Shown here: positions 1,778-49,163 of the stretch, in pieces
How positions within the stretch are numbered: position 1 is the first letter of the stretch
Layout: each line of letters opens with the position of its first letter
Notes under the pieces: model-generated
Seen by the model: only the letters and a program-made list of their open reading frames with translations
Database searches by the model: none
What the model was told of the DNA's origin: nothing
Made by a program: the position numbers and the translations under genes
Source: Chiridota heheva
Taxonomy: Eukaryota; Echinodermata; Holothuroidea; Apodida; Chiridotidae
Direction of reading: 5' to 3'
Assembly (NCBI GenBank): GCA_020152595.1
Contig: JAIGNY010000573.1
Coordinates: 249,501-313,500 of the forward strand
DNA: 64,000 nt

Positions 1778-2539
1778 TCATTTCTCTGAAGTCTTTTTCA
1801 ACACAACACACCAATTTCCCTGATCGTAATAACTCTCAGCTAACTCCACATTGCCAAGATGTTTACATGCGTTATCCAGTTCTCCCTGACGAAAGACGTG
1901 ATAAAATCTGTAAAACACCTCTTTCTCATCTCCAAGAGAGTTACCATCAGACTTCTCTCTGAGATGCCAAGGAACCAGCAAGTCTTGGTCTACAAACTCG
2001 GTTTTGTTTTTATGAACTGTCAGATGAGAGGAGGGGTATGTCCTCTTAGATTTTAAACTATCTGCTTGTGAGGTCTCATTTATCCCTAAGTCCTCTCTTG
2101 AATCAAATTTTTTAAATTCATTGAAACTTTCCGCTGTTAAATTCTCTGCAGTTTTTTGCTTGCTTTTATCGTTTTCCTCTGACCCATGCGATACCTTATC
2201 TTCCTCTCTTCCCTCCATCCCAAATTCATTTTTGTTGTCTGGACCCTCTTGAGAGGAATGAGTGTTAAGTGCACTGTCTTTATCAACTGCCTCATGTAGC
2301 TTGGAGCATTGACATTCAGGGTACTGAAGTGATTCTCCAGACGATGTCTCAGAAACTATTTCTTTAAGTACATCCTCCTTCTCCAGACTTACACCTTCTT
2401 TGAATTCCTGTTTTTGCTTCATCAAATAGATGGATTTCTGTTGGTGTCTCTTCTGCTCCATGGCCCACACATATATAAGAGCTGTGCCACCTATACGAAG
2501 TATCCTCACAAGTTCCTGAATGGCTTGAATGCGACGATC
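1778..2539 (-). CDS. ALKBH8: ALKBH8 terminal coding exon 11
   Basis: After acceptor TTTCATGCAG the exon reads [20 protein letters not shown] then LIYVWAMEQ, the end of the methyltransferase domain. A hydrophilic, Lys/Glu/Ser-rich linker of about 150 residues follows, then the family C-terminus [10 protein letters not shown]...[15 protein letters not shown]...[12 protein letters not shown] and a TGA stop at 1778-1780. The linker is longer than in human ALKBH8 and is the main reason for the larger protein. Confidence 0.95.
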   Translation of the reverse strand, partial: DRRIQAIQELVRILRIGGTALIYVWAMEQKRHQQKSIYLMKQKQEFKEGVSLEKEDVLKEIVSETSSGESLQYPECQCSKLHEAVDKDSALNTHSSQEGPDNKNEFGMEGREEDKVSHGSEENDKSKQKTAENLTAESFNEFKKFDSREDLGINETSQADSLKSKRTYPSSHLTVHKNKTEFVDQDLLVPWHLREKSDGNSLGDEKEVFYRFYHVFRQGELDNACKHLGNVELAESYYDQGNWCVVLKKTSEK

Positions 2540-32500: not shown

Positions 32501-35500
32501 TCCCACTGAAATCATCCCCCTGAAACCCTTACCCCGGAAATTCCAATCCTAAATCATGGACCTCCCCCCCCCCCCCCATCCCATTCAAGAACCCCTGTGC
32601 ACATATTTTCCAGAACTGCCCACTGTGAATTTATCTTTCATTTGAGATTTATGTAAAAGCAAACAACAGTGAAACTGACAATTCAAATTGTATTTAATAA
32701 GGTTTTTGAGTTTCCGATTCAAGGCTTAAAAAGCTACATACATACACTGTCGCAGTGTAGCCAAGACCAACATCAAATTTGAATTTTGATGTACATCTTA
32801 CTTCCCAAGGAGTCAAGATTATCCGTGATTGGAATAGACTAACCCCATCAACAGCCAATGCAGAAAGTCTGAATGGTTTCCATAATCAGCTGGGCAGACT
32901 AATGGCTGCCTGGTTTGGTGTGGAGTAGTACTCCCTGTAGTACCGTCAGACTGATGCCAGCTGTGTTAGTATGGCTGCCGATGGTGATGGCTGGCCGTCC
33001 TGAGGGTATTACAAATCCTATACCCTCCTGTACTGTTTTAAGTGAGGTGTTATAAGTATAAGAAAATCTCAGTTTTAAGATCTTTATGAAAATGAAACCA
33101 TTTTACCTTGATGTTTGAAGCCCGGCCATGTCTTCAAAAACTGTTCTCAAGGTGATTTCAGTTACTTTTATCAAAGTATTTTTGACTACTTTTCCTTCCG
33201 TAAAAATCGTCTAACGAGATCTCCAAAGTATGGTCAAAGTTCAAAACATTGCCATCAGGCTATAACATTTTACCAGTGGTAATATGTTTTAGATTATTTG
33301 AAATATAAAATTAAGATAATACTTATAAAGTACAATTATATAATCTAAACATTTCTTGATGTTTTATTTATTTGTTTTTGCACACAGTTTTTTTTTTACC
33401 AAAACTATTTAATAAAATTAAATGAACAAAAAAATGTTGTGGGCGAAAAATCAACTTGCAGTTTAGTGGAAGATTCTAAAACTTATTTGCGGTCATTGCG
33501 GTTGTGAATAACTAATCACAAACGTGTGGTGACTAATAAAATGGCAACCAAAATATGAATCTCAGAGAACTTTATACTGTCGTGGAGCTAAATAGGTAAA
33601 AATTTTGAAAAAGTTTTTTGGGAAAAGTGTATTAATTAGACTAATTGATATAAGAATATCCAAAAAGTAAGTTATTTGCAATCATCAATTTTCTACATGT
33701 GAATTTTTTTTAAAAAAACATAAGAATTGTACCTAATCTCTAACAACCCTCGTACGGCAATCCCAATGTCAACCCATACCAAGGGATGTGTATAATAACT
33801 AGATGTGGAGTAGTACGCATCCATATACCCAAATAAAGCAGATAGATTTGGGTATGTGCCCATGTCCATTGAAAAAGTGGTACCACACACTAATCAAAAA
33901 TCAATGGGATTTAACGTCTCAAAAAAAAAGTTTCCAGATTTTTCTGGGAGACTTCATTTTCGATATCAAAATTAACTCCTTCCTCACTGAAAAATTAAAT
34001 ATACTTACTTCAATTTGTTTTTAGTTACAGTTGTAAAATTTGGAGAGAAACAACAATGACAAATGGTCAAAATTAGAAGGAAAGAGAAAAAAAAGAAAAA
34101 CATTTTTGTCAGTTTTTTAAAAAATCGTGAAACGCTCTTAACAATACATGTAATACCGGCGCATGTGCATGCACATACAAAATGTAATTTACACCTCGCA
34201 ATTAGCATGCGCAATATTTTGAATGTCTTTCCCTCATGACACGTACGTACACGCATAGCACCTATGGCGTTATACGCGTTGGAATTGCAACACTCAAACA
34301 GAACAACCCAATTCCTGTGCTTTTTATATGCCCGTGAAAAACGCCTGTAAAAGTTCCTGGCCCGTGTTGTTCTTTTTCAAATTGTATATACTCGCGTACC
34401 CGTAACAATGCTCAGCGTAGAAAATTCAGTTCTATGCAGGAATTTCACTGTAAAAGACCACAGAGCCAAAACATCCAGAAAATAACGTTTTTTATACATT
34501 TCTAGCGATAAGTTTTGCTCGATGATATCATCATTTGATTCGGAAACATCTCCTTTAATATCAAGGATTAAATTTTTATGTTTACAAGGGAAGAGAGAAG
34601 TTGGTAGCCATCGGAAGTAAAAGTTTGTTGTTTCGGTGATGTTGTATTATATTGTAACAGCATTGTATTGCGTTGTACGCTCACTAGGTGAGCACCGGCA
34701 GTTTCTTTTAGTTTTGTAGTTGTTCTGTTCTGTTTTGTTGAATTTTTGGAATTTAAGCTGTTACTTTTAAAATTTTAATTTTGCCTAGTTGTGTTTTGGC
34801 CTGGCCAGCCTCATGCCGCGGAGTATAATGCTCTTTAAAGAGTCAACTCTATATTATTATTAGAAAAGATGAACTTGTTGGCATTGTTATAAATGTAGTG
34901 GGTGTCCTGCAGAGCTTGTTAGGTATACGGATCATGAAAAGTTTACAAAGGGTTTGATAAAAGTGCTTTTTGAAAAACGTTTGTCCAAAGAGGTTAAAAT
35001 TAATTCTAAGTCGTTTTATTTGTATGTTCTCACAAAGCAAAAATCAGGATATTGATGGTGTTACTATCAATAGTGGTAAAGATATGGCTGAGGTTTTAAA
35101 TGACTACTTTGTGTCTGTTTTTACCAAGGAGCCCCCTGCTGATGATGTTGTGGATTATCTTAGTGTGCACTCTCCTGTATCCATTAAGAATGTTGATTTT
35201 TCAGTTGATGTTATGTCTAAGAAGTTAAAGGGTTTGAATTCAAATAAAGCACCCGGTCCAGATGGTATACATCCTGCTGTCTTACGTGAGTGTTCTGGTG
35301 TTCTTTCTGATCCCCTGAGTATTATCTTTTCAAAGTGCTTTGATGTTGGTGTTGTTCCTAGTGATAGGAGAATTGATAATATCACTCCTATTTTTAAAAA
35401 AGGTGACCACAGTTTGCCTTGCAACTATAGCCTAGTGAGTCTTACTTGTGTTGTGTGCAAGGTTATGGAGTCCTTTGTTAAGGATGTTGTACTAGATCAT

Positions 35501-36695
35501 TTACTGGTCAATGATTTGTCCCAGCATGGGTTCTTACCTAAGAGGTCTTGTGTTTCTAACTTATTGGAGTTTTTTGATGATGTCACTAAACTAGTTGATT
35601 CTGGTCATAATGTGGATGTTATCTACTTAGATTTCCAAAAAGCATTTGATAAGAATCTGTTAGACAGGCTCATGTTGAAAACAAGAACGCTTGGTGTGGA
35701 GGAAAAGTGCGCCAGTTGGATATATTCTTGGTTAGTTGACAGGTCACAAAGAGTTGTTGTTAATGGTGAAGTATCTCCATGGAAGAAGTTTCAAGTGGTG
35801 TTCCTCAGGGTTCTGTATTTGGTCCGCTTTTTCTTTAATCTTCATTACTGATATTGATGTTTCCCTTGGCTTGGCTCCAGGATTTGTAAATTTGCTGATG
35901 ACACTAAGCTGTACAGAATTGGTTATGATGCTAGGGATTCTTCACTTTTGCAAACTGATCTGGATAAATTAGTTTCTTGGTCCCAAACATGACAGATGTC
36001 ATTCAATTTTATTTATTTTGGTCAGAACAGTTTGCTGTTGATTACTGCATGAATGGTTCAAATCTTGGTTGTGTTGATCAAGAAAGGGATCTAGGTGTTG
36101 TTATATTACTAGGCCTAGCAATCTGAAGCCTTTTAAACAGTGTGCTTTAGCAGCTGCAATGGCAAATAGAATGCTTGGTTTGATTAAAAGAATTTTTGTT
36201 TTTTTGTTAGAGGTTGTTTTTATTTGTATAAGCAATTAGTCAGGCCTCACCTTGAATATGCTATTCAGGCTTGGAGTCCCTTTTATGAGAGGATAAGTTC
36301 ATTTTGGAGCATGTTCAGTGAAGAGCCACTAAACTTATTCCCGAAGTAAGGAATCTCTCTTATGAATCTACTAAGTCTGGGTGTATTTGATTTTTTTTTG
36401 TCGTGGTGGTGTTCTTAGTTTGGGCTTTTTATGGGATGATTAACCCTTCTTAGCCCGTTATCTTGTTATGTTAGAACTTAAAAATTTACCTAATTTTTCG
36501 CGAAACTGGTTAGCACGAAAGCTAATAATACTTATATAAATTTGAGCTAAACAAATCATCAAAAATTGACGGACATACCTTTGATGATGTTTCAGAGAAT
36601 GTTAATTTACAATTCTTTGAATCCTTCAATATGAATGCCTTTTTCTTGGCGAGTTTTTTGTCCAGTTTAGTCTTTCGCATGCCACTTATCTCCAT
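1778..36695 (-). CDS. ALKBH8: ALKBH8: tRNA wobble-uridine dioxygenase/methyltransferase, 11 coding exons
   Basis: ALKBH8 completes wobble-uridine modification of tRNAs. Its methyltransferase domain (with TRMT112 in known species) makes mcm5U from cm5U, and its AlkB domain hydroxylates mcm5U in tRNA-Gly. The spliced product is about 727 residues (human 664). The order is a basic N-terminus (1-39), RRM (about 40-118), AlkB domain (about 120-330, Fe ligands H235, D237, H290 and 2OG-type arginines R321 and R327), Cys-containing linker CHC, then a SAM methyltransferase with motif I LDVGCGNGK (406-414) and the C-terminal signature [10 protein letters not shown]...[12 protein letters not shown]. All 11 exons have GT/AG borders and phases that join correctly, except for one extra base in exon 7. 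The larger size comes mainly from a charged linker in the last exon. Coordinates give the whole coding span; exons are listed separately. Family and domain order are secure. Expression and functionality are inferred. Confidence 0.94.
2546..3035. other. Start of ALKBH8 intron 10, no features
   Basis: AT-rich intron sequence between exon 11 and the minisatellite. I see no coding potential or repeat here. Confidence 0.5.
3040..4180. repeat. 29-bp minisatellite with 12-unit higher-order repeat
   Basis: About 39 tandem copies of a 29-bp unit (ATATGGCACTG plus a TTATATATACATAAAGGT half) lie in ALKBH8 intron 10. Variant units carrying ACAAATAAAGG have their C at 3351, 3554, 3699, 3902 and 4049, alternating 203 and 145 bp (7 and 5 units; the last step is 147). 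A CTGTCATAT variant recurs at 3432 and 3780, also 348 bp apart. This shows duplication of a 348-bp, 12-unit block. Confidence 0.95.
4181..5040. other. Intron 10 sequence, no supported gene
   Basis: AT-rich, with short poly-A and poly-T runs (4209, 4650). A plus-strand open frame of 82 codons (4773-5021) is Lys/Ser-rich and matches nothing I recognise. It has no splice or promoter context, so I do not call it a gene. Confidence 0.4.
5045..5178. mobile_element. Short palindromic MITE-like element (family B)
   Basis: Left part: TTACCCCGCTAAGCGTAGCG, then GATATTTACGAGAGTTACAC and CTTACCTTCCATGC. The right part contains GCATGGAAGGTAAGGTATAA, complementary to the inner left arm. The middle carries TTAGAATCAGGTCATGTGAC, shared with the copies at 23.2 and 26.3-26.6 kb. 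No ORF; probably a non-autonomous DNA transposon. Confidence 0.55.
5179..6455. other. Rest of ALKBH8 intron 10
   Basis: AT-rich intron sequence without supported genes. A block at 4886-4905 (GTGACGTCACTCCCAGAACA) reappears inverted near 5845-5860 (TTCTGGGAGTGACGG), so an old inverted repeat may be buried here. The evidence is thin. Confidence 0.3.
6456..6605 (-). CDS. ALKBH8: ALKBH8 coding exon 10 (methyltransferase core)
   Basis: The exon encodes [20 protein letters not shown] followed by [20 protein letters not shown] and [10 protein letters not shown]. The acidic GCDRS after strand 2, the [10 protein letters not shown] segment and the [12 protein letters not shown] motif all match ALKBH8. 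Acceptor TTTTCTAG; donor GTAAAT. Length is an exact 50 codons. Confidence 0.93.
7075..7121 (-). CDS. ALKBH8: ALKBH8 coding exon 9 (SAM-binding motif I)
   Basis: A 47-bp micro-exon encodes [16 protein letters not shown]. Joined to exon 8 it gives the SAM-binding loop [13 protein letters not shown] typical of TRM9/ALKBH8 methyltransferases. Acceptor ATTACAG; donor GTGAGT. Confidence 0.92.
7616..7831 (-). CDS. ALKBH8: ALKBH8 coding exon 8 (linker and start of methyltransferase)
   Basis: The exon encodes [10 protein letters not shown] in the linker, then [20 protein letters not shown] and [20 protein letters not shown], ending LDVG. This matches the start of the class I methyltransferase domain of ALKBH8/TRM9 ('[21 protein letters not shown]...'). 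The exon ends within the glycine codon of SAM motif I. Acceptor TTTGACAG; donor GTGAGA. Confidence 0.93.
8575..9720 (+). mobile_element. Cluster of family A repeats ('AAGCCCCGCCCACT' element)
   Basis: At least five tandem or nested blocks each contain TTAAGCCCCGCCCACT, then ATTAATATGCATGA, then CATCACCACCAA, GGGCACATCT, CCATGGGCTA and TGTGTACCACATATGACATG. The cluster starts with TGGTTCCGATGC (about 8590) and ends with GCATCAGAACCA (about 9705), which are inverted copies of each other and so look like TIRs. No protein is encoded. This is probably a non-autonomous DNA transposon family that carries internal duplications. Confidence 0.6.
9721..10092. other. AT-rich intron sequence
   Basis: Very AT-rich, with no ORF and no clear repeat structure, between the family A cluster and the LINE. 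Confidence 0.4.
10093..11820 (-). pseudogene. CR1/jockey-like LINE, 5'-truncated ORF2 (reverse transcriptase)
   Basis: Minus-strand pieces in several frames give RT blocks in order: [105 protein letters not shown] and the 3' thumb region [12 protein letters not shown]. Frame breaks interrupt it and no endonuclease is present, so it is a 5'-truncated dead copy. It lies in ALKBH8 intron 7 in the sense orientation. The 3' end carries TTATCTTGTTATGT, shared with the copy at 34.9-36.5 kb. Confidence 0.9.
11821..13140. other. Intron 7 sequence, no supported gene
   Basis: AT-rich with poly-T/poly-A runs at 12580 and 12697 and short open frames without domain character. I see nothing functional. Confidence 0.4.
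13145..13420. repeat. Dispersed repeat family C, copy 1
   Basis: It shares ordered blocks with 62590-62830, for example AAGAAACAAAA, GAAAGCAT, CAGATTCCTC and AAGTCTT, plus a TGTGGCTTAAA...GGATATGTC...AAAGTAG stretch, all in the same orientation. There is no ORF and no boundary I can define. Confidence 0.6.
13421..14039. other. Intron 7 sequence, no supported gene
   Basis: AT-rich. The plus-strand open frame at 13759-14010 has no recognisable domain. Confidence 0.4.
14040..14255 (-). repeat. tRNA-derived SINE, copy 1
   Basis: The minus strand begins GACCTCCGTGGTGTAGTGGT and continues TAGTGCTTTGTCCTAAC, resembling a tRNA 5' half with box A. It then has a box-B-like GAGTTCGTATCCC. Downstream is the block AACTGGTTATCAAAGGCCGT, shared with the SINE at 54.2-54.5 kb, and a tail ending near AACAATAAGG. 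It sits about 50 bp from ALKBH8 exon 7, on the downstream side. Confidence 0.75.
14303..14440 (-). CDS. ALKBH8: ALKBH8 coding exon 7 with a +1 frame disruption
   Basis: The first half reads [16 protein letters not shown] in the frame set by exon 6. The second half matches the family only one frame over, as [20 protein letters not shown] and CHC. This part holds the 2-oxoglutarate-binding arginines of RTSLTFR and the Cys-rich linker. The change falls at the G triplet 14391-14393: 138 bp are present where 137 keep the phase between exons 6 and 8. Without correction the frame hits a stop at the exon end. Acceptor TTTTAG and donor GTAAGT are intact. An assembly or sequencing indel in a short homopolymer is as likely as a real lesion. 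Confidence 0.88.
14441..16799. other. ALKBH8 intron 6, mostly featureless
   Basis: AT-rich intron of about 2.4 kb. Apart from the 57-bp duplication listed separately, I see only low-complexity A/T stretches (for example 16190-16260) and no coding potential. Confidence 0.45.
15330..15443. repeat. Perfect 57-bp tandem duplication
   Basis: The unit beginning TTCATCACAGACTAAGTATC and ending CAGCAAGCATTAC occurs twice back to back (starts 15330 and 15387) with no difference seen. Either it is very young or it is an assembly artefact. Confidence 0.9.
16800..16909 (-). CDS. ALKBH8: ALKBH8 coding exon 6 (third Fe ligand)
   Basis: The exon encodes [20 protein letters not shown] and [17 protein letters not shown]. 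The His in LWSHG (residue 290) is the third iron ligand, and the [14 protein letters not shown] stretch is a strong AlkB-family match. Acceptor TTTTTCAG; donor GTAAAA. The exon leaves two bases (GG), completed to Gly by exon 7. Confidence 0.92.
16910..17360. other. Intron 5 sequence with poly-T run
   Basis: AT-rich; a run of T at about 17321-17339. No other features. Confidence 0.4.
17522..18260 (+). pseudogene. L1/Tx1-type ORF1 remnant
   Basis: The ATG at 17522 opens an 86-codon frame (Lys/Ser/Thr-rich, then an acidic and Gln-rich part). After a stop, other frames supply a coiled-coil segment, an RRM-like part ([17 protein letters not shown] is readable with a frame change) and the C-terminal [20 protein letters not shown]. 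In L1-type elements this protein binds and chaperones the element RNA. Confidence 0.75.
18540..19650 (+). pseudogene. L1/Tx1-type ORF2 C-terminal remnant
   Basis: The frame closing at 18790 contains [31 protein letters not shown] and [20 protein letters not shown]. Later frames carry the Cys/His region ([20 protein letters not shown]) and [20 protein letters not shown]. This matches the region after the RT in Tx1/L1 ORF2 proteins. The stops show it is degenerate. Confidence 0.75.
19874..20388. other. Intron 5 sequence
   Basis: AT-rich, with no feature seen between the LINE and ALKBH8 exon 5. Confidence 0.4.
20389..20459 (-). CDS. ALKBH8: ALKBH8 coding exon 5 (Fe(II)-binding HxD motif)
   Basis: A 71-bp exon encodes [20 protein letters not shown] and then LGSQ. 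His and Asp of HVD are the first two Fe(II) ligands of the AlkB-type dioxygenase (residues 235 and 237 of the predicted protein). It lies between acceptor TTTAACAG and donor GTATGT. It is too short to be found as an ORF and was located by homology to the family. Confidence 0.92.
20780..21515 (+). mobile_element. Family A repeat, near-complete copy
   Basis: It starts around CCAAAGGTTTTAAGTTCCGA (20782) and ends with ACATCGGAACCAAAAATGAG (about 21505), inverted relatives of each other. Inside are two 'AAGCYCCxCCYACT...ATTAATATGCATGA' blocks, the GGGCACAT and CCATGGGCTAT segments, and a CA-rich stretch (21425-21480) just before the right end. There is no ORF of note. Confidence 0.65.
21616..21819 (-). 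CDS. ALKBH8: ALKBH8 coding exon 4 (AlkB nucleotide-recognition lid)
   Basis: The exon encodes [20 protein letters not shown] and, further on, [19 protein letters not shown]. This matches the ALKBH8 block '[15 protein letters not shown]...YIKHKPDQMTINQYEPGQG' just upstream of the iron-binding HxD. Acceptor TTTTGCAG and donor GTACAG are canonical. Confidence 0.93.
21820..23065. other. Intron 3 sequence
   Basis: AT-rich. A lone GTGGTTCCGATGCTGTTG near 22332 resembles a family A terminus, but I see no matching body. No genes. Confidence 0.4.
23066..23205 (+). mobile_element. Family A fragment
   Basis: It contains TTAAGCCCCGCCTACTCATT, then AATATACATGATGTCACCAC, CCATGGGCTATTTGTGTACC and TTGAGATATTGTATTTAC. 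It is cut off by the family B arm that follows at once. Confidence 0.65.
23205..23345 (-). mobile_element. Family B arm, left side of a nested insertion
   Basis: TTACTTTAAGTTATATCTTA, CCTTCCATGCTATGAACATG and CAATCTGGTCCAAT are the inverted counterpart of the sequence at 26257-26325. The two arms flank 2.9 kb of unrelated DNA, so a family B element was probably split by an insertion. Confidence 0.5.
23346..25588 (+). mobile_element. DIRS-like 5' region (inferred)
   Basis: This GC-richer block differs from the surrounding intron. It contains an imperfect duplication (GTCAGTGGGGTCATAGGCAG near 24810 and GTCGGTGGGGTCACAGGTAG near 24898) and the 'cggctccatacgg' minisatellite listed separately. 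It precedes the gag-like frame at 25589 and lies between two family B arms. That it is leader of a DIRS-type element is an inference from the gag-like frame. Confidence 0.35.
25080..25345. repeat. Degenerate 'CGGCTCCATACGGGTCCAT' minisatellite
   Basis: About a dozen diverged copies of short units around 'CGGCTCCATACGG' and 'GGGTCCATA'. The minus-strand frame across it is repeat-derived. Confidence 0.7.
25589..25960 (+). pseudogene. DIRS-type gag-like fragment
   Basis: Plus-strand reading from the ATG at 25589 gives [20 protein letters not shown] then [12 protein letters not shown], a stop, and next [20 protein letters not shown]. The paired C-x2-C clusters followed by a 'C..CSDW' motif and a Ser/Pro-rich tail resemble the start of ORF1 in animal DIRS elements. 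No RT follows. Stops interrupt it. Moderate to low certainty. Confidence 0.4.
25961..26256. other. Sequence between gag-like frame and family B arm
   Basis: No feature recognised; it probably belongs to the same inserted block. Confidence 0.3.
26257..26596. mobile_element. Family B arm plus a complete family B element
   Basis: 26257-26325 is the right arm that matches 23205-23260 in inverted form. Directly adjoining it, 26325-26596 is a second element with longer TIRs: TTTACCCTGCTTTCTGTATC on the left versus AGCGGGGTAAGTTTAC (reverse) on the right. Each arm continues through a GATATTTAC(A/G)AGAGTTA(C/T)ACTTA(C/T)CTTC stretch. The interior carries AGAATCAGGTCATTGGACCA as in the 5.1-kb copy. 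Confidence 0.55.
26597..27075 (+). mobile_element. Family A repeat with ACAT microsatellite
   Basis: It contains TTAAGCCCCACCCACTATGC, then GCCCTGCCTACTCATTGATA, then ATCTGTGTACCATATATAAC. A long (ATAC)n tract follows at about 26919-27000, and it ends with GATTGCATCAGAACCAAAAA. The microsatellite sits exactly where other copies have CA-rich sequence. Confidence 0.65.
27076..27654. other. Intron sequence with a possible LINE 3' tail
   Basis: At 27090-27165 TTTGTTTGTTTTGATG is followed by GCTTAACGGCACCAC and a TGTGCC. This resembles the 3' end of the I-like element next door (27661-27720), so a second, very short 3' fragment is likely. The rest is featureless. Confidence 0.4.
27655..29224 (-). 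pseudogene. I-clade LINE, 5'-truncated: RT thumb and RNase H
   Basis: Minus strand, 5' to 3': [20 protein letters not shown] and [20 protein letters not shown], then [20 protein letters not shown] (end of RT), then [12 protein letters not shown] (RNase H first Asp). After frame breaks come [15 protein letters not shown] (RNase H end) and [15 protein letters not shown]. It ends with GCAGTGCCGTTAAACATCAA and a (CAAA)n tail. The order RT-RNase H with this tail is typical of the I group. It lies in ALKBH8 intron 3, sense orientation, and is dead. Confidence 0.85.
29413..29541 (-). CDS. ALKBH8: ALKBH8 coding exon 3 (start of AlkB domain)
   Basis: The exon encodes [20 protein letters not shown] followed by [18 protein letters not shown]. 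It corresponds to the '[25 protein letters not shown]' part of the human protein, where the AlkB fold begins. Acceptor TTCTGCAG and donor GTATGA flank it. Its phases join exon 2 (1 nt) and exon 4 (2 nt). Confidence 0.9.
29815..30495. repeat. 17-bp minisatellite in ALKBH8 intron 2
   Basis: About 38 copies of TATATATGGACTATTAC with scattered substitutions (TATACGG, TATAGAC and others). Because 17 is not a multiple of three, each frame cycles through the same peptides ([17 protein letters not shown]); these frames are not genes. Confidence 0.95.
30496..31653. other. Intron 2 sequence
   Basis: AT-rich, no feature recognised. Confidence 0.45.
31654..31894 (-). CDS. ALKBH8: ALKBH8 coding exon 2 (RRM domain)
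   Basis: The acceptor TTTTACAG is followed by [16 protein letters not shown], and the exon runs through [16 protein letters not shown] to LYLYFVNE before donor GTATTT. This is the ALKBH8 [13 protein letters not shown] is a near-invariant family signature, and YCFVSY corresponds to RNP1. The exon leaves one base that completes a Val codon with exon 3. Confidence 0.93.
31895..32740. other. Intron 1 sequence
   Basis: AT-rich, with a C-run at about 32563-32576 and an imperfect CCC-rich stretch (32440-32560). No gene. Confidence 0.4.
32745..32930 (+). pseudogene. LINE ORF2 C-terminus fragment
   Basis: Plus-strand reading gives [20 protein letters not shown] then [18 protein letters not shown] and a stop. 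'RDWNxLP...A.SL..F...L' is the usual end of jockey/CR1/RTE-type ORF2 proteins. Only about 60 codons are left. Confidence 0.5.
32931..34850. other. Intron 1 sequence
   Basis: AT-rich sequence with no supported gene. Short open frames near 33693-34256 show no domain character. Confidence 0.4.
34855..36480 (+). pseudogene. CR1/jockey-like LINE, second copy (antisense to ALKBH8)
   Basis: Same family as the copy at 10.1-11.8 kb but on the plus strand. The open stretch 34970-35851 reads FEKRL.. at its start, then [57 protein letters not shown] and [12 protein letters not shown], then [20 protein letters not shown]. After stops the catalytic FADDTKLYR (about 35890) and [10 protein letters not shown] follow. 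It ends near TTATCTTGTTATGTTAG (36460-36475). It lacks the endonuclease, so it is a dead 5'-truncated copy in ALKBH8 intron 1. Confidence 0.9.
36579..36695 (-). CDS. ALKBH8: ALKBH8 coding exon 1 (N-terminal basic helix)
   Basis: This exon encodes about 39 residues beginning [20 protein letters not shown] and ending SETSSK before the donor GTATGT. The ATG has an A at -3 and a G at +4. The lysine-rich stretch matches in position and character the N-terminal segment that precedes the RRM in vertebrate ALKBH8. The exon ends on a codon boundary, so exon 2 (HLLVANGG) follows in frame. A second in-frame ATG five codons later is a possible alternative start. Confidence 0.75.
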
Positions 36696-36878
36696 AATGG
36701 CAGTTGGTAGCACAAAATCATACAAAATCTATTAGACGGTAAAAGACCTTTCAATTCTCTTTTATCTCGTTCTAACAACCAACACACCTGTGACGTTGCC
36801 TGGTACTTGGGTTCCAGTACCGTTTATCCAGCTGGAAGGCCCAGGAAGGGTCATTTATCATTAAAGCCAATGGGAGGG
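36696..36878 (-). promoter_or_regulatory. Putative ALKBH8 promoter/5' leader, bounded by a transposon
   Basis: Only 183 bp separate the ALKBH8 start codon from the tip of the 10.8-kb foldback element. The stretch holds a CCAAT sequence (36867-36871, plus strand) right beside the element's target duplication and a TGACG half-site near 36792. There is no obvious TATA box. That this is the promoter is inferred from position only; the transcription start may lie inside the transposon. Confidence 0.35.
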
Positions 36879-36894
36879 CAGTAGTAAGAGGCCA

Positions 36895-36927
36895 CTATAC
36901 AGGCCCGGACAGTTCGGGCCTGTATAG
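36895..36927. repeat. Subterminal perfect hairpin in the left tip
   Basis: CTATACAGGCCCG, a 7-nt loop, then CGGGCCTGTATAG: 13-bp perfect arms, 16 bp inside the element end. The right tip (47631-47663) has an imperfect version. Confidence 0.9.
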
Positions 36928-37370
36928 CGGCCCCTGAGATTTTCCCTCTTGGTCATCGGATTGGTCCGGGCCTGTATAGCGGCCCCTAAGATTTTTCCTC
37001 TTGGTCATATGATTGGCGGGGTCTCTCTGAGATTTTCCCTCTGGTCATATGATTGGTCGGGGTCTGTATATTGACCTCTGAGATTTGTATTTATTTGCAT
37101 ATACTTAATGCTAACTTTGGATTAATCACTACCTGTATAGCGGCCCCTGAGATTTTCCCTCTTGGTCATCGGATTGGTCGGGGTCTGTATATTGACCTCT
37201 GAGATTTGTATTCATTTGCATATACTTAATGCTAACTTCTGATTGGTTACTACCTGTATAGCGGCCCCTGAGATTTTCCCTCTTGGTCATCGGATTGCGT
37301 CACAAGATATTCTCGACGACGGAGCTTTTGATTGGTCCAGGTCTGTATAGCGGCTGAGATCTGGTCGGGG
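36928..37370. repeat. Left subterminal repeats (CCTGTATAGCGGCCCCTGAG)
   Basis: About five copies of CCTGTATAGCGGCCCCTGAG followed by ATTTTCCCTCTTGGTCATCG and GATTGG. Two longer units between them contain TTTGCATATACTTAATGCTA. The equivalent right block is 47080-47640. Confidence 0.85.
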
Positions 37371-37539
37371 ATATCACAGGACAGAACTTAAACTTTGAAT
37401 GATTTCAGAAGACATTTTTTCTGGGGTCTTCATTTGAGAAACAATTTTTTGAAACACTCATTTGAGAAATAATTTTTCGGAAACACTGTCAAAGTTTTTG
37501 CTCAACTGTTTTAATTTGGAAAAAGCTGGCGTCAACGGG

Positions 37540-37800
37540 GAATGACAGGACAGAGCTGCACTTTAATGCGAAATACGGGGTCTACGGGGGCTTAATCGTG
37601 GGAATAATCGGACAAAACTACGTTTTTAACGGGAAAAAATCGCGTCAACGGGGGAATGACAGGACAGAGCTGCACTTTAATGTGAAATACGGGGTCTACG
37701 GGGCTTAATCGTGGGAATAATCGGACAAAACTACGTTTTTAACCCCAAAAAATGGCGTCAACGGGGGAATGACAGGACAGAACTGCGCTTTAAAAAAGGG
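37540..37800. repeat. Left triple repeat (tacggggtctacgggg)
   Basis: Two and a half to three units of about 100 bp: AATGACAGGACAGAGCTGCA, CTTTAATGCGAAATACGGGG and a GGACAAAACTACGTTTTTAA stretch. They mirror 46815-47070 in the right arm. Confidence 0.85.
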
Positions 37801-37869
37801 TTGGGACTTGATTCCAAACCACGCCCCCTGAACTTTTTCCTCAAACATTATATTTGAGCATGCACGTTT

Positions 37870-37995
37870 TGAAAATCCGGTGAAGAAGAAGAAAAAGAAG
37901 AAGAAAAGAAGAAAAAGGAGGAGGAGCAGGAGGAGGAGGAGGAGCAATAGGAGGAGAAAGAGGAGCAAGAGGAGAAGGAGAAGAAGAAGCAGGGA
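37870..37995. repeat. Purine (GAA/GAG)n tract in left arm
   Basis: A run of about 125 bp of GAAGAAG/GAGGAGG units on the plus strand. Its mirror is the TCC/TTC tract at 46625-46725. The poly-Ser and poly-Phe frames across them come from the tract. Confidence 0.9.
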
Positions 37996-39029
37996 GTTAA
38001 ATTTGAGAAGGCATTTTTCGTTTTGATTTGTACTTCAGTTTTTGAAATTGTTGAGCGCTCTTTTTTCTCAACCATCCACTTTTGAGAGGATAATTTAAAG
38101 AAAAAAGGGGTAAAAAACAAGGGAAATGGGTTAAAAAGCGAGGGACTTCATTGCGTACACGCGATAATGACGTCATTGCCTTGAGAATGGGACAAAAGTA
38201 TCTATGACGTTATGAAATGTAGATGTGTATTATGTTGTATGTGAACATCGACCAGTCTAGGACTGTCCGGAGAGAACCGCCATGACGACGGAACGTCGAC
38301 GAACCTTGCGCCGTGCCAAAGCACTACTGAAACCCGATTTTGCCCAAGTTATATTGCCCTATGCAAGGTTAACGAAAATACAGTCGCTACCCCCGTCTAA
38401 CATCAGGCAACTCTAGCGTATCAAGGGTAAGCAAGGTGTGTTTTCTTCCTTGTGACTGTTGGCGTGTACATTCTATACCATCATCCTGGGATAATTTCAA
38501 GCAATTTATAAACCAAACTATCAATTTACATGTTATTGCCAGCCATCTCTTAAAAAAAAAAACCTGAAACACACTTACCATATTCAAATCCCAAAGTAAT
38601 TACAGTGGCAGATTTATTTGAGCAAGACACTAATGAATGACGCAATCCCGTACTTTAGGATCAGGCTCATATTCCACCACCCCTGCTGTTCTCCTAAACG
38701 ACGATTTACTACTTATAGTAAGTCATGGTAATAATACACACAATGTAAGTATAACACGTAAGTAAAAATGTCAACCCGTTATAATTGATATATAATAACA
38801 CGTTGTGGTTATTAGTGTAGCGGACAAACGCTAACGAATTAATGATAAACAAAGCTTCAATCCGCTTTTAAATGTTCAGTCTTGAATGATATTCAATACT
38901 GTTGCCATATATGTTCATCACACCACTATTAAGTGACTAATCGGATGGATTCAAAATGACATAATTCTGTTACGTATGTAATGGACCAATACCATTATTT
39001 AATATTCGTCTTTCATGCCTTATCCCATA

Positions 39030-40650
39030 GTAACAGACATCAAGGACATTTAAACAAAGGATCTATATTGATCCAATAAACAAACATGGATTATGAATGA
39101 CTTTTTTTTTTATACTATTGACATCGATTTGCCACGCAAACATCTTAACAGATACTTTTCCCCCATTATTATATCATCACACTTTGACCACCCTATTATT
39201 AAACACGCATTATGTACAAAAATTACGTATCGATCGGTCTATTTTTGGCCACGCAAACATCTTCACAGATAATTTTACCCCATTATCATATCATCACACT
39301 TTGACCACGCTATTATTAAACACGGATTATGTACAGAAATGATGTACCGATCGGTTCTGTTTGTCAAACACAAGGACATTTAAACAAAGGATCTATATTG
39401 ATCCAATATTGAATAAACACACATGGATTATGATTTTTTTCTCATACTATTGATATCGATTTGCCATGCAAACATCTTCACAAACAATTTTACCACATTA
39501 TCATATCATCACACTTTGACCACCCTATTAATAAACATGCATCATGGACAGAAATGATGCATCGATCGGTTCTCTTTGTGAAACACAAGGACATTTAGAC
39601 AAAGGATCTATATTAATCCATTATTGAATAAACACACATGGATTATAAATTTTGTTTTCTTCTTATACTATTGATATCGATTTGCCATGCAAACATCTTC
39701 ACAGATAAATGTACCCCATTATCATATAATCAAACATACAGTACTTTGACCACCCTATTATTAAACACGCATTATGTACAGAAATGATGTATCTGTCGGT
39801 TCTCTTTGTTAAACACAAGGATATTTGAACAAAGGATCTATATTGATCCATTATTGAATAAACACACATGGATTATGATTTTCTTCTCACACTATTGATA
39901 TCGATTTGCCATGCAAACATCTTCACAGATACACCATTGTTAAACATCACACTTTGACCACCCTATTTTCAAACACGCATTATGTACAAAAATGATGTAG
40001 CGACCGGTTTTCTTTGTCAAACACAAGGACATTTAAACAAAGGATCTATAGACACACATGGATTATGATTTTTTTTCTCATACTATTGATATCGATTTGC
40101 CATGCAAATATCTTCACAGATAATTTTACCCCATTATTATATCATCACACTGTGACCACCCTATTATTAAACATGCATTATGTACATAAATGATGTATCG
40201 ATCGGTTCTCTTTGTGAAACACAAGGACATTTAAACAAAGGATCTATATTGATCCAATATTGAATAAACACACATGGATTATGAATTTTGTTTTCTTCTC
40301 ATACTATTGATATCGATTTGCCATGCAAACATCTTCACAGATAAATTTACCCCATTATCATATAATCAAACATACAATACTTTGACCACCCTATTATTAA
40401 ACACGCATTATGTACAGAAATGATGTATAAATCGGTTCTTTTTGTCAAACACAAGGACATTTAAATAAAGGATCTATATTGATCCAATATTAGGTACACA
40501 TGGATTATGAATTTTTTTCTCATACTATTGATATCGATTTGGCATGCAAACATCTTCACAGATAATATTACCTCATTATCATATCATCACACTTTTACCA
40601 CCCTATTATTAAACACGCTTTATGTACATAAATGATGTATCGATCGGCTT
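39030..40650. repeat. Tandem array in left arm (about 200-230-bp units)
   Basis: About seven units, each with ACACAAGGACATTTAAACAA, AGGATCTATATTGATCCA, ACACACATGGATTATGA, ATTGATATCGATTTGCCATG, CAAACATCTTCACAGATAA, CACTTTGACCACCCTATTAT and ATGATGTATCGATCGGTTCT. Spacings between the GGACATTT boxes run about 200-230 bp, apart from a first interval of about 330 bp that holds an extra half unit. Confidence 0.92.
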
Positions 40651-42477
40651 TACAACAATTTATCCCTATTATTGAACATTATATAATCAAAAATTAGGGC
40701 TCACAAACCCACGTAACAGCAGATAGCAAAACAAAAATACGCATGATGTACACAAAATGGATTGACTGTATGTCCTGCATTAAAAAAAAACGGCCCGTGA
40801 AGAAAGATAGAACTCAGTCAAATTTCTTCTACAATTACAACTTCATGTCCTCAAATGACCCCAGAAGCAGCACCGATTAACGGCAGTTGGTATATACTAA
40901 GCACTCAAATAAACTCGCGCGGAAAATCGATAGGTGGACCTATTGATTTTCCTGCAGAACTGTTTGTTTTCTCGACACTTTGTGAAGAGAATTTTAGCAA
41001 ATGACAACTAAGAAACAGTTTTTTCTAAAACTTGTCATGTTTGAGACCAACGTTTTGAAAATAGGTAAGATTTGAGCGACGATATTTTTTAAGTGGTGTA
41101 ATATGAGCAGACAATTTTTTTTAAACGTGTACAATTTAAGAACGAAACTTTATTTTCAAATCCCATTGACTTTGCACAGGGAGTAAAATTGACACAACGG
41201 TAAATTGGGAAAAAAGGATGCGGAATGAATCCTTTTCTTCAGTCCATTGCCTCGCGGGAGAAAGACAAATTCGACACTTTTATCCAGGATAAATGTGCAG
41301 GGTGACCCTAGCAATCATGTTTGTTCTGACGTCATACTCCAACATATGTTGGTTGGAGTTAGCCCTATGTTAAACCGTATGTAATCAAATCAATCAATAC
41401 AGGACAGAGGAAAAGTGGGATCAACGCATGGTATGTTTCCAGTGGCCAAAAGAGCTACGCCCTTTGTTATCTGAATGTCGCTCGATGGAGCTGACTGGAT
41501 TATTGGTTGTTTACATACATTGGGTACTTACGTATGGTGTAATCATAGCGCTCATAAAATTTGAAGTTAGATAGCTATCATATATTACGTTATTTCCCCG
41601 TAGTCGCCAGTTTGCTCGTAAAAACGCAGTTCTGTCCGCTCAAATCATACTGTTTGAGAAAAAATTAGCCCTACCGCTATGGCTGGAACGGTTCTTTTTT
41701 TGTTTTTTGTTAGAGTCACACTGTAGCAAAATAACTGTAAGTGTTCATTATAACTGACTAAGGCCTACAGGAGAGAGAAAAAATGCCTAATCCCAATAGG
41801 CATCTGATAGTGGACCCCTCAATTGCTCGTGAATTTCTTAAGGCAATCTGTTCCCTAGCTGTATGAAAGATGATCAATCATGCTAAGAAAAGTCATGCAT
41901 ATTGGTTACAAAATGTTACAAAAGGTATAATAAACGTACATTTTACCCCAATTTTTGATTTTTATCTTAACACAAATATTGAGTATAAATTAAGAGTACA
42001 AAACATTCTAAGATTCCCGCGCTTTCTCTCTGACCAATCACGTTACATGAATTATAGGTAAAACAATTAAAGTTACCGCCAAATTGAAAATTCTGAAGCT
42101 GGCGCTAGAATTAAGGCATTTGATAAAAGTCTTCTTTTTTCTTTCTTATTTTAGTAAAAATGCGCAAAGAATTTTTAGATCTTATTCGCACAGGGTGGAT
42201 TGTAAAAAAAAAAATCCCTACTTTTACAAGTATATTGGTATATGACAAACAAAATCTACTTCAATAGTAACAAATGCTTTAAAATCTCCTTTCTACAACT
42301 CTATACGATATTAATTTTATTCTTTAAATTGATCCTTTTTAACGTCCTTGAGAAAATTTATAACAAAAAGAAGTAAAAAAACTATAGTTAATTATAAAAT
42401 AAAAAAATAAAAAATGTGTTAATGGCTAAAGGTCCCCCCCACCTCCTCCTTCCAGGTCTAGTTGCCCTGGTATTATC

Positions 42478-42505
42478 GACATATATAATATATATTATAT
42501 ATGTC
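42478..42505. repeat. Perfect 28-bp palindrome in the spacer
   Basis: GACATATATAATAT followed by its exact reverse complement with no loop, close to the geometric centre of the element. Confidence 0.9.
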
Positions 42506-43768
42506 GGGGGTGTCTAACAACGGCCAAGTTGCTTATTGTTACCTAATTTTAAACACGATCACATTAGTGGACTGTACAAAATATATATTAAAACTTTTTA
42601 TAACAAATGAATATTTTCCCATTCTCACAAAAATTCAACAACATAAGACACTATACATTAATAGCGACTGATATTGATTTTTACTATGATTCGTAAACCT
42701 TCGAAAATCGTCATGCAGTATCATTATAAGAAAACAAGTTTGCTCATTGGATAATGTTGTCTCTTAGCAGAATAGAGTATCGATTTTTTCCTTATCTCCA
42801 GACTAAAAGTAAATATCGTTCGTTTCAGTTCTATTGTATAGTTTCATGCACTACAACACTTTGCAAAAAATTAGGAACATGTTTTTCATTGGGGGTACAA
42901 AGATGCTACAACACTGGTTCAATGGTAAACAAAATTGCAGTATAATACAACGCCTTTTAGGCGCCTTCTTTCGCATCATTCTCGTTGTGCAGGTGACTTC
43001 TTTCATCGTTGTGGTAGTGTAGGTTTAAAAAAAATTGCTTTTAATTTCGTACAGTTGACCAACAATATTTTTGTTTAATACTTGATGTTATCGAAATTTA
43101 CTTATTTCATACTACGGGTATCAACATTGTATATAATTTCACAAACATCACAGAATAGTCTCGACAACAAAGCTTTTGATTGTGTGGTTAATGATGCTCC
43201 TGACAGCATTAACTTTCTTTTTGAGAAAGAAAAAAAACTTTGTTGCCATTACCTAGTGACATTTCCCTCACATGGCCGTCTGTTTGGCCTTGTCCCAGTT
43301 AGCCAAGTTGGCCCATTAGACATTTTCACCACACCCATCCCTGTTCGACCTTGTCATAGCCTTGTCCCATTACACATTTTCGTCATGTTCCTGCTTGTTT
43401 GGACTGTTTTTGCCTACGGCGTGTTCTAACACGCTTATAACGGCACTTCCGTGACCGTTCCCTGACCTTTTCCGAGGCGGACCTTCCTTGTACAAAATTC
43501 GTGTCTGAGCTTTTTTTTCAGTTTCATAAGACATCAATGTATGCGTGTGTTGATGCAATTCTTGACATTTTGTTTTGATGAACTTTCGGTTAGGAAAATA
43601 ACTGAAATCCACTGGACTACCAATCGAGCAAAGGATTTACCACTGCCCGTTCAAGCATTATGTGTATGAAAATACGTCCATTTTGACCAAAATATTGAGG
43701 AACCGTCGTTTTTTTCCTTTAAATTATTGAAAGTCATCTGAGGTGAATATGTCATCAAGGTATGCTTA

Positions 43769-43814
43769 CACACACACACACACACACACACACCCTCACC
43801 CTCACACACACACG

Positions 43815-43849
<35 letters not shown>

Positions 43850-43850
43850 C
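43769..43850. repeat. (CA)n microsatellite
   Basis: CA repeats interrupted by CCCTCACCCTCA and CGCC, located next to the inner end of the right arm. Confidence 0.95.
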
Positions 43851-44339
43851 TCGATATTACACAATAGCATCTCACAACAAGAAAATTCTCTGTCCTGTTT
43901 TGATTGATTTGATTACATACGGTTTAACATAGGGCTAACTCCAACCAACAGATGTTGGAGTATGACTTCCGAACAAACATGATTGCTAGGGTCACCCTGC
44001 ATATTTATCCTGGATAAAAGTGTCGAATTTGTATTTCTTCCGCGAGGCAATGGACTGGGGAAAAGGATTTATTCCGCATTCTTTTTTCCCAATTTACCGT
44101 TGTGTCAATTTTGCTGTCTGTGGTCCGTTTTCTTTGTTAAATTTCACTTTAGATCTACATGTAAGTACCAACTGCCGTTAATCGGTGCTGCTTCTGGGGT
44201 CATTTGGGGACACGAAGTTCTAACTGTAGAAGAAATCAAGCGCATTTTGACTGAGTTCTATCTTTCGTCACGGGCCTTTTTTTAAAATGTAGGATATACA
44301 GTCAATCCATTTTGTGTACATCAAGCGTATTTTTTGTTA

Positions 44340-45560
44340 TTGATGTTTAATAATGGCGGTTAAAATGTTGTAGAGCCGATCGATACATCATTTATGTACA
44401 TAATGCGTGTTTAATATTAGGTTGGTCAAAGTAGTGTATGTTTGATTATATAATAATGGGGTAAAATTATCTGGGAAGATGTTTGCATGCCAAATCGATA
44501 TAAATAGTATGAAAAAAAAAATTCATAATCCATAAGTGTTTATTCAATATTGGATCAATATAGATCCTTTGTTTAAACGTCCTTGTGTTTGACAAAGAGA
44601 ACCGATCGATACATCATTTCTGTACATAATGCGTGTTTAATAATAGGGTGGTCAAAGTACTGTATGTTTGATTATATGATAATGGGGCACATTTATCTGG
44701 GAAGATGTTTGCATGGCAAATCGATATCAATAGTGTAAGAAGAAAAAAATCATAATCCATGTGTGTTTATTCAATATTTAATCAATATAGATCCTTGGTT
44801 TAAATGTCCTTGTGTTTGACAAAAAGAACCGATCGATACATCATTACTGTAAATAATGCGTGTTTAATAACAGGGTGGTCAAAGTGTGATGATTTAATAA
44901 TGGGGTAAAATTATCTGTGAAGATGTTTGCATGGCAAATCGATACCAATAGTATGAGAAAAAAATTCGTAACCCATGTGTGTTTATTGGATCAACATAGA
45001 TCCTTTGTTTAAATGTCCTTGTGCTTGACAAAAAGAACCGATCGATACATCATTTTTGTACATAATGCGTGTTTAAAAGTAGGGTGGTCAAAGTGTGATG
45101 TTTAACAATGGTGTATTTGTGAAGATGTTTGCATGGCAAATCGATATAAATAGTATGAGAAAAAATCATAATCCATGTGTGTTTATTCAATAATGGATCA
45201 ATATAAATCCTTTGTTTAAATGTCCTTGTGTTTCACAAAGAGAACCGATCGATACACCATTTCTGTACATAATGCGTGTTGAACAATAGGGTGGTCAAAG
45301 TGTGATGATATGATAATGGGGTAAAATTATCTGTAAAGATGTTTGCGTGGCCAAAAATAGACCGATCGATAAATAATTTGTGAACATAATGCGTGTTTAA
45401 TAACAGGGTGGTCAAAGTGTGATGATATAATAATAGGGGGAAATTATCTGTAAAGATGTTTGCGTGGCAAATCGATATCAATAGTATGAGAAAAAACATT
45501 CATAATCCATGTTTGTTTATTGGATCAATATATATCCTTTGTTTAAATGTCCTTGATGTC
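44340..45560. repeat. Tandem array in right arm
   Basis: An inverted equivalent of the left array with about five to six units (AGAACCGATCGATACATCAT, GGGTGGTCAAAGTGTGATGA, TGTTTGCATGGCAAATCGAT, GATCCTTTGTTTAAATGTCC). The copy number differs from the left arm. Confidence 0.9.
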
Positions 45561-46814
45561 TGTTATCATGGGATATGGCATAAAAGACGAATATTAAATA
45601 GTGGTATTGGGCCATTATATACGTAACAGAATTATGCCATTTTGAATCCATCCGATTGGTCACTTAATAGTAGTGTGGTGACCATATATGGCAACAGTAT
45701 TGAATATCATTCAAGACTGAACATTTAAAAGCGGATTAAAGATTTTGTTTTATCATTCATTCGTTAGAGATCGTCCGCTACACTAATAACCACAACGTGT
45801 TGTTATATATCAATTATAACGGGTTGACATTTTTTCGTGTTACACTTACTGTGGTGTATTACTACATTGTGTGCATACTGCGTGTTTTGATTACCATGAC
45901 TCACTGTAAGGAGAGAGACCAATCGTCGTTTAGGAGAACAGCAGGGGTGGTGGAATATGAGCCTAATCCTAAAGTACGGGATTGCGTCATTCATTAGTGT
46001 CTTGCTCAAATAAATCTGCCACTGTAATTACTTTGGGATTTGAATATGGTAAGTGTGTTTCAGGTTTGTTTTTTAAGTTGATGGCTGGCAATAACATGTG
46101 AATTGATAGTTTGGTTTATAAATTGCTTGAAATTATCCCAGGATGATGGTATGGAATGTACGAGCCAACAGTCACAAGAAGAAAAAAAACACACCTTGCT
46201 TACCCAAGAGTTGCCTGATGTTAGACAGGGGTAGCGACTGTATTTTCGTCAACCTCGCATAGGGCAATATAACTCGGGCGAAATCGGGTTTCAGTAGTGC
46301 TTTGGAACAGCGCAAGGTTCGTCGACGTTCCGTCGTCATGGCGGCTCTAGACGGACAGTCCTAGACTTGTCGATGTTCACATACAACATATACACATCTA
46401 CATTTTATAACGTCATAGATACTTTTGTTCCATTCTCAAGGCAATGACGTCATTATCGCGTGTATGCAATGAAGTTCCTCGCTTTTTAACCAATTTTTCT
46501 CGTTTTTTACCAGTTTTTTCTTCAAATTATCCTCTCAAAAGTGGATGGTTGAGAAAAAAGAGCGCTCAAGGAATTTCAAAAACTGAAGTAAACATCAAAA
46601 CGAAAAATGCCTTCTCAAATTTAACACCCTGCTTCTTCTTCTCCTCCTCCTCTTGTTCCTCATCCTCCTGCTCCTCCTCTTGTTCCTCCTCCTCCTCCTC
46701 TTGCTCCCCTCTTTCTTCTTCTTCACCGGAATTTAAGAAAGTGCATGCTCAAATGTAATGTTTGAGGAAAAAAGTTCAGGGGGCGTGGTTTGGAATCAAG
46801 TCCCAACCCCTTTT

Positions 46815-47640
46815 TAAAGCGCAGTTCTGTCCTGTTACCCCCTTGACGCCTTTTTTCCGTTAAAAACGTAGTTTTGTCCAATTATTCCACGATGAAGCCC
46901 TCGTAGACCCCCGTATTTCGCATTAAAGCGCAGTTCTGTCCTGTCATTTCCCCATTGACGCCATTTTTGCCCGTTTAAAACGTAGTTTTGTTTGATTATT
47001 CCCACAATGAAGCCCTTGTTGACCCCCGTATTTCGCATTAAAGTGCAGTTCTGTCCTGTCATTACCCGTTAGATGCCAGCTCAGGGGCCGCTACACAGAC
47101 CCGGACCAATTAGAAGCTCCGTCGTCGAGAATATCTTGGGACGCAATCCGATGACCAAGAGGAAAAATCTCAGGGGCCGCTATACAGGTAGTGACCAATC
47201 AGAAATTAGCATTAAGTATATGCAAATAAATACAAATCTCAGAGGTCAATATACAGACCCCGACCAATCCGATGACCAAAAGGAAAGAACTCAGGGGCTG
47301 CTATACAGGTAGTGACCAATCCGAATTTAGCATTAAGTATATGCAAATGAATACAAATCTCAGAGGTCAATATATAGACCCCGACCAATCCGATGACCAA
47401 GAGGGAAAATCTCAGGTGCCGCTATACAGGCCCGGACCAATCCGATGACCAAGAGGGAAAATCTCAGGGGCCGCTATACAGGCCCGGACCAATCCGATGA
47501 CCAAGAGGGAAAATCTCAGGTGCCGCTATACAGGCCCGGATCAATCCGATGACCAAGAGGGAAAATCTCAGGGGCCGCTATACAGGCCCGGATCAATCCG
47601 ATGACCAAGAGGGGAAATCTCAGGGGCCGCTATACAGGCC
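46815..47640. repeat. Right triple repeat and subterminal repeats
   Basis: 46815-47070 mirrors the 'TACGGGGTCTACGGGG' units. 47080-47640 has about eight copies of CTCAGGGGCCGCTATACAGG with CCGGACCAATCCGATGACCA, more than on the left side. Confidence 0.88.
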
Positions 47641-47682
47641 CGGACTGTCTGGGTCTGTATAGTGGCCTCTTACCACTGAGGG

Positions 47683-49163
47683 CCTGACTTTTTTGAGTAT
47701 CCAGTCAATCATTCATCGTTAGTTGAACATGATAAAAGAACCAGGCACGGATTAAGAGATGGGGGAGGGAGGCTATGAGGGAGGGAGGATATGAGGGAGG
47801 GAGGGGGAGGTGAGTGGTGAAGCAAATATATCCCAAAATTATATTCAAAATAATTATTTTCATGCTACCTAGTGGCTGCTTCCGCCCCATGGGTGTATTA
47901 GAAGGGGAAAGGCAACTTGCTCCTCGCGGATTCTCATCAAAAATATATTGCTGTAGGCATAGTGGTCTGTTCTGTCCGCATTCATTTGACCGAAATTTTA
48001 AATAAATTCATCAAACCACCTCAAGTACGATACCATTATTTAAACGACTGTAGAGTTTTGTTTAACACAAAATCATAAGAAAATAAAAATTGAGAAAATA
48101 AAGAACTACAAACTCAACTTTGTAAAAGTATATTTTATTCATTTATTATAATTTTTATTTGGGAGGGGGGGAGGAAGGGGGTGAGTCATATAACGATTCA
48201 GAAAGGTCCCTTTTGTGTAGTAGCCTCCACTCATGATTTCTTTTTAAAAAGAAATTTGCTGGAACAAGGCAAAAAAATATATATAGCATCTCATATAACT
48301 GTATAAATATAGGTGAAGAAAAACGGTAAAAATCAATCGTTCAGTCATTGAAGATCAGACTTCAAAAGTCTCTTATTTGATACGGAAATTATTAAGCGAT
48401 ATTTCAACTATTACTAAGATATAATGCTCCCTACGCTAGTGACATAGAGCCCAGACAGAAAAAGTTGCCAGATAAGTAGTACGGCGTGCACGACACGCTA
48501 CGCCCTATTCGTCGGGTGGCCCGGGTAGCGTACAATGGCACGGGATATTTTAGCGTGAAATGATTTTCTAATAGTTAAAAAAAAATCGAAAATCTTTGCA
48601 TATCTTTGAGAGTAGGGCTTTTGCTGGCATTCTCCAGTCTCCCGTTGGATCCGCCAATGTCTAGTAGTTGCATAAAGTGTTATACACCAACTAATTTTGT
48701 TTTATCAGGTCAGCTCTAAAAACGATCATAAAGAGTTTGTAGAATTGTGATTCCAATGAACCAACTTGCTTCATATTGCACAATGATTGATACTGGGTAG
48801 GCTTCGGTTGTCTAGTCGTAAACGGAGTTAATTTAGCTGGTCGTATGAGCGTGACTTTCAGAATTAGGTATAAAAAGGACCACTTTGGAGTTTTCTAAAG
48901 GTAAGTTTACCGTTGCTTGTCTCCACAAATAATGTAGGGATACTACAGTACATTTGAAAGAAACTAAGATGTTTCATGTTATAAACATATTCACTGCAGT
49001 CTGAGTGTAACTACTGAACTATTATTACAACAGACTAAATGGTTAGAAACAGTCGCCCTCCCTTTCAATCAGTACATGCAAATATGAATGTTTTGCAAGG
49101 GACTCGGCCCCGTGCTAAATATTTTCGAAATTAACTGGCGCTCAGGCAGTCAAGGGAAAACTC
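47683..49163. other. Intergenic sequence
   Basis: It includes a GGGAGGGAGG-rich stretch (47760-47812). A TATAAAAAGG at about 48870 is followed roughly 30 bp later by a perfect donor AAAGGTAAGT (48898), which could be a promoter and first non-coding exon on the plus strand. No downstream exon was found, so this is only a possibility. Confidence 0.3.

Follow-up and report, generated by a model that had tools for sequence, protein, structure and literature searches.

Polintons (Mavericks) are thought to replicate by protein-primed copying, a step that is hard to observe. Protein-primed linear replicons such as adenovirus and yeast linear plasmids give rise to snap-back, or palindromic, deletion forms with two mirrored copies of one end. 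Among elements of foldback shape, TU of sea urchins has an 8-bp target duplication and 15-bp outer repeats. For vertebrate Mavericks, the accessible text of PMC8097293 gives (AGT)2//(ACT)2 ends and 6-bp duplications, the ends being (AG)3 or (AGT)2. A literature search, with most subscription papers outside its scope, found nothing on non-autonomous Polintons/Mavericks or on mirrored ones.

The window analyzed here, a 64,000-nucleotide stretch of the Chiridota heheva genome, contains an element that the first-pass annotation described as a foldback transposon with a 4-bp AGGG duplication, matching no family. Its features are as follows, in window coordinates.

36874..36879, no strand: left copy of the 6-bp target site duplication GAGGGC, identical to the 6 bp at the other end
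36880..47677, no strand: whole element, 10,798 bp, AGTAGT... to ...ACCACT
36880..41409, plus strand: left mirrored arm, 4,530 bp
36880..37297, plus strand: left outer terminal inverted repeat, with 52/121-bp subterminal repeats
38654..38770, minus strand: remnant of a Polinton pre-polymerase frame in the left arm, residues 1-46 of L038:1987-2823, pointing to the near end (tblastn 43% over 46 aa, E 3e-5)
39041..40647, plus strand: array of ~230-bp units in the left arm (6.5 copies by TRF at 39248-40647; inverted matches)
41175..41409, plus strand: innermost mirrored block, left, 94.0% identical to 43888-44122
41410..43887, no strand: central loop, 2,478 bp, common to this element and a sibling on contig C469 (L054)
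43888..47677, minus strand: right mirrored arm, 3,790 bp
43888..44122, minus strand: innermost mirrored block, right, found at no fewer than 40 places genome-wide
44372..45555, minus strand: array of ~230-bp units in the right arm (4.5 copies by TRF at 44372-45351; inverted matches)
45860..45973, plus strand: remnant of the pre-polymerase frame in the right arm, residues 8-46, pointing to the near end (tblastn 77% over 39 aa, E 2e-13)
47265..47677, minus strand: right outer terminal inverted repeat, 82.8% identical to the left one
47678..47683, no strand: right copy of GAGGGC, identical to the 6 bp at the other end

Self-comparison recovered the two long arms that had been noted by eye, in which the order of blocks on one side is inverted on the other. 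Three collinear blocks align between the arms (430 bp at 82.8%, 2,773 bp at 87.0% and 235 bp at 94.0%; 86.9% identity over aligned blocks), and the arms differ by indels and by the number of 230-bp units. Inverted self-similarity amounts to 4,248 bp on the left side of the element, compared with 0, 39, 201, 56 and 0 bp for five 10.8-kb stretches taken from elsewhere in the window. A Pfam search of the six open frames of the element gave no match at E 0.1, in keeping with the earlier remark that no transposase is visible, and neither an integrase nor a protein-primed PolB gene was detected in the element by Pfam at E 0.1 on open frames or by tblastn.

Elsewhere in the window, an inverted repeat pair (10495-11816 and 35055-36370, 88% over 1,352 bp) overlaps a reverse-transcriptase frame at 34961-35851 (PF00078). 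Open frames at 51580-53034 (minus strand) resemble a DIRS-type reverse transcriptase, and a 259-aa frame at 1778-2557 (minus strand) resembles tRNA methyltransferases of the TRMT9B/ALKBH8 type, both judged by eye. Tandem arrays are present at 3042-4180 (29-bp unit, 39 copies, 96%) and 29833-30493 (17-bp unit, 39 copies, 84%).

The expectation of a foldback-like, non-autonomous transposon with further copies in the host was upheld. In a search of the 1.1-Gb genome, a 23-base end occurred 914 times (450 + 464) at no more than 3 mismatches, versus 1 for a control; exact 15-mer ends occurred 23 times, versus 0 for the control. Because the aligned blocks differ in identity, carry indels and hold unequal numbers of 230-bp units, an assembly palindrome is unlikely. 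Together with chance similarity, it is an explanation that we regard as extremely improbable: no point in its support was found, and it is opposed by arms that are 83-94% alike with indels, by the matching flanking duplication, by a sibling locus and by the 914 ends.

Comparison of 20 loci with related ends placed the family end at AGTAGTAAG / AGTAGTAAGRGGCCACTATACAG, with the base just beyond AGT being A, C, G or T across copies. Since this outer base varies, the terminal C/G of the first-pass annotation is target DNA; the end begins at AGT, and the duplication is the 6-bp GAGGGC rather than the 4-bp AGGG, the earlier edges having lain one base off on each side. The termini of the window element are thus AGTAGT on the left and AGTGGT on the right, in agreement with the (AG)3-or-(AGT)2 ends of Polintons. 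Other copies likewise show 6-bp rather than AGGG-like 4-bp duplications: the six bases match perfectly in 10 of 19 complete copies (window, L035, L036, C2768, L051, C958, C1344, C3606, C34 and C69), compared with 0 of 342 cross-paired flanks. Four copies (C231, C2797, C3235 and C3697) have a one-base mismatch, five (L032, L034, L043, L050 and C699) lack even a near match, and only at C958, a repeat-rich site, does the match among the 19 copies extend beyond 6 bp. This count leaves out single-ended loci and L045, which has three ends, and does not include the C94 pair; 10 of the counted end pairs were added by eye from 100 of the 914 end places. An empty site for the window insertion, for which a search had been suggested, was not found in this genome, where the joined flanks occur only at the insertion itself and the flanks are single-copy.

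Several ends were irregular. At the four near-matching duplications (L055-L056, L063-L066 and L069-L070) the mismatch always falls on base one of the six, as though 5 bp had been duplicated and an extra base added at the right end. At L045, two facing family ends survive as a 57-bp remnant (positions 536-592) with CACTAT on either side, and a third end, which follows at 699, shares this left flank. A chromosomal inversion between two copies on C1450 (L033 and L032), whose right flanks (TATAAA and TTTATA) are the reverse complement of each other, was considered and rejected; the predicted left end with the upstream flank TCCCCC was absent from 19 kb, and L033 consists of a single isolated end of ~450 bp.

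The same ends bound coding Polintons. A 14.3-kb copy on C2768, flanked by the duplication ACCGTC, encodes an integrase (L037; rve 6.6e-14 and chromodomain 5.5e-8 by Pfam) and, in interrupted frames, a polymerase (L038; DNA_pol_B_2, 9.5e-22 and 2.3e-8). The search for an autonomous relative proposed at the outset was therefore answered in part: integrase and polymerase are present in this copy, and none of the capsid, protease and ATPase families was found in it at E 0.1. A Pfam search gave 152 DNA_pol_B_2 matches in the genome. At six loci (C2768, C2397, C3458, C1197, C1344 and C3623/L051) a polymerase match is located 0.8-1.8 kb in from a family end and is oriented to that end. PHROGs returned matches only to transposase and polymerase families. 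A candidate second coding Polinton on C561 (L041 on the integrase side; L053 with the pre-polymerase frame, 82%) showed no right end within the next 8 kb. As a separate observation, fucosyltransferase domains (PF00852, 9.4e-47) are present in a 480-aa frame at L048:1431-2870 (minus strand), which lies 0.95 kb in from a family end.

Compared with these systems, the window element resembles Polintons/Mavericks in its (AGT)2 ends, its 6-bp duplication and its coding relatives with chromodomain integrase and DNA_pol_B_2, but differs in being gene-less, in missing the integrase half and in having kilobase arms where the terminal repeats of the coding copies here are short (393 bp and 242 bp). Galileo of Drosophila (P superfamily), as covered in the available text of PMC3573991, also has gene-less copies, long, internally repetitive arms and chimeras without matching duplications, but it has a 7-bp duplication, a P-type transposase and unrelated ends; the 6-bp duplication and AGT ends of the window element differ from the 7-8-bp duplications and P-type ends of the P superfamily. 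Tetris and Drosophila Foldback share layered arms and ~220-bp internal tandem repeats according to the accessible portion of PMC4079207, where they are given 8-10-bp duplications and placed in Mutator by the authors, in contrast to 6 bp in the window family. TU, named in that same portion, shares the foldback shape; the window element is set apart from the description of TU, rather than from its sequence, by its 6-bp duplication and 52/121-bp subterminal repeats. The suggested likeness to TU and Drosophila foldback elements is one of shape only. An undescribed foldback family with a transposase of its own, having only its ends in common with Polintons, would agree with the lack of a transposase in the window element, but it is made highly unlikely by polymerase-side remnants in the arms and by coding Polintons that share both the ends and the length of the duplication.

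Both arms of the window element carry a remnant of the C2768 frame that precedes the polymerase domain, each pointing to its near end. This frame, which has no Pfam match, probably represents the N-terminal portion of the polymerase gene; Polinton polymerases have an N-terminal terminal-protein domain, as stated in the accessible text of PMC11071308. Positions 1236-2121 of L038 match both arms. Seven complete copies retain at most fragments of Polinton genes (window, L032, L034, L035, L036, L043 and L050; L032 contains a nested reverse transcriptase). Using L037 and L038, from one coding copy only, as the reference, all seven match the polymerase side beyond the terminal repeat and none matches the integrase side beyond its repeat. 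The polymerase-side block is mirrored in both arms in six of the seven, the exception being L043. Among 52 ends typed, 20 were polymerase-type, 4 integrase-type and 28 neither; polymerase- and integrase-type ends numbered 3 versus 2 of 21 at loci from the 15-mer search, and 17 versus 2 of 31 at the long loci plus the window, where selection of the 20 long loci by similarity to the first 200 bp of the window element may favor polymerase-type ends. At the level of sequence comparison, these data establish that the internal sequence of the window element descends from the polymerase side of a coding Polinton.

Since the window element has no genes but the C2768 copy with the same ends does, it is a non-autonomous derivative rather than an autonomous member. 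The statement that it matches no family is superseded by its ends, its 6-bp duplication, the coding copies with the same ends and the polymerase-side remnants in both arms, all of which point to Polinton/Maverick. We consider it likely that the window element is a non-autonomous Polinton derivative whose polymerase end was copied in mirror image and which is mobilized in trans, and the shared ends and duplication suggest that Polinton integrase and polymerase would provide that mobilization. Some details run counter to this explanation: five of the 19 complete copies lack even a near 6-bp duplication, L043 is not mirrored for the polymerase-side blocks, the block matching L038 622-745 is out of order in the left arm, and the piece matching 414-592 is reversed.

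The chief rival accepts the Polinton origin but attributes the mirror to gene conversion or unequal exchange between terminal repeats, after insertion or between chromosomal copies, which would carry sequence from the polymerase side over to the opposite end, a process proposed for Galileo. The pattern seen here is the one reported for Galileo in the available text of PMC3573991: gene-less copies with longer arms, tandem repeats in the interior, and chimeras whose flanking duplications do not match. The pairing of the arms of one copy in block trees also fits conversion (window 90/92 and 86/83; L035 99/97; L046 85/80). Conversion should, however, also give integrase-side mirrors, and none was seen in the seven gene-less copies; in addition, the common fold point and loop at two loci and the identical deletion points in both arms of L036 (6204|1876 and 1773|918) fit a single founding event better than repeated conversion. 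On balance we regard conversion as the unlikely origin of the mirror.

The mirrored form has itself multiplied. The innermost block is present at 40 or more places (167 candidates), and among the matches listed it forms an outward-facing pair within 10 kb on four contigs: C569 (the window element), C469, C1019 and C25. The C469 pair, 93.5% alike, encloses the loop of the window element in reverse (87.3% over 2,675 bp) and has arm sequence beyond both junctions; this sibling is known here from its loop, junctions and adjoining arm sequence, and it is the sharing of the loop and both mirrored junctions that indicates multiplication. A polymerase break at 6204 is shared among L036, L039, L040, L042, L043, L045 and L049, which suggests a non-autonomous lineage that multiplied. 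The two arms of the window element are as similar to each other as the median for comparisons between copies (94.3 versus 94.1%; 91.8 versus 92.2%); this gives no sign of a recent snap-back and makes the fold old in comparison with the spread. Neither the fold point nor the loop is constant across L032, L034, L035, L036, L050 and the window element, with loops of 184-4,695 bp and additional mirrored sequence in L035; folding therefore occurred more than once or was reshaped.

If the mirror arose by copying, the polymerase of a coding Polinton would copy the element extrachromosomally from protein-primed ends, and during strand displacement it may jump to the opposite strand and copy the polymerase-side half back. 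The product, linear and with the same functional end on both sides, would be a snap-back form comparable to a defective-interfering genome. A Polinton integrase could insert it in trans with a 6-bp staggered cut; the block arrays in the arms would then expand and shuffle. Snap-back copying in protein-primed replication accounts for the two polymerase ends, for the loss of the integrase half and for the equal deletion points in both arms. The snap-back forms of adenovirus and yeast linear plasmids are extrachromosomal, whereas the window family is integrated and multiplied. We propose, tentatively and at somewhat less than even confidence, that this family preserves in the chromosomes a fossil record of defective-interfering-like Polinton genomes of the snap-back type, symmetric molecules with a polymerase-side end on either side that arose in protein-primed replication and were copied and inserted in trans at hundreds of sites, and that gene-less mirrored forms parasitize coding Polintons as defective viruses do.

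The gene-less mirrored Polinton is a new form of a known kind of transposon, and moving the end one base inward turned a 4-bp "orphan" into a Polinton derivative. Mirrored Polinton derivatives are a possible source of foldback elements without a visible transposase. Gene-less copies that keep the ends and a mirrored polymerase half show what the Polinton machinery requires, and leave a readable trace of its mode of copying.
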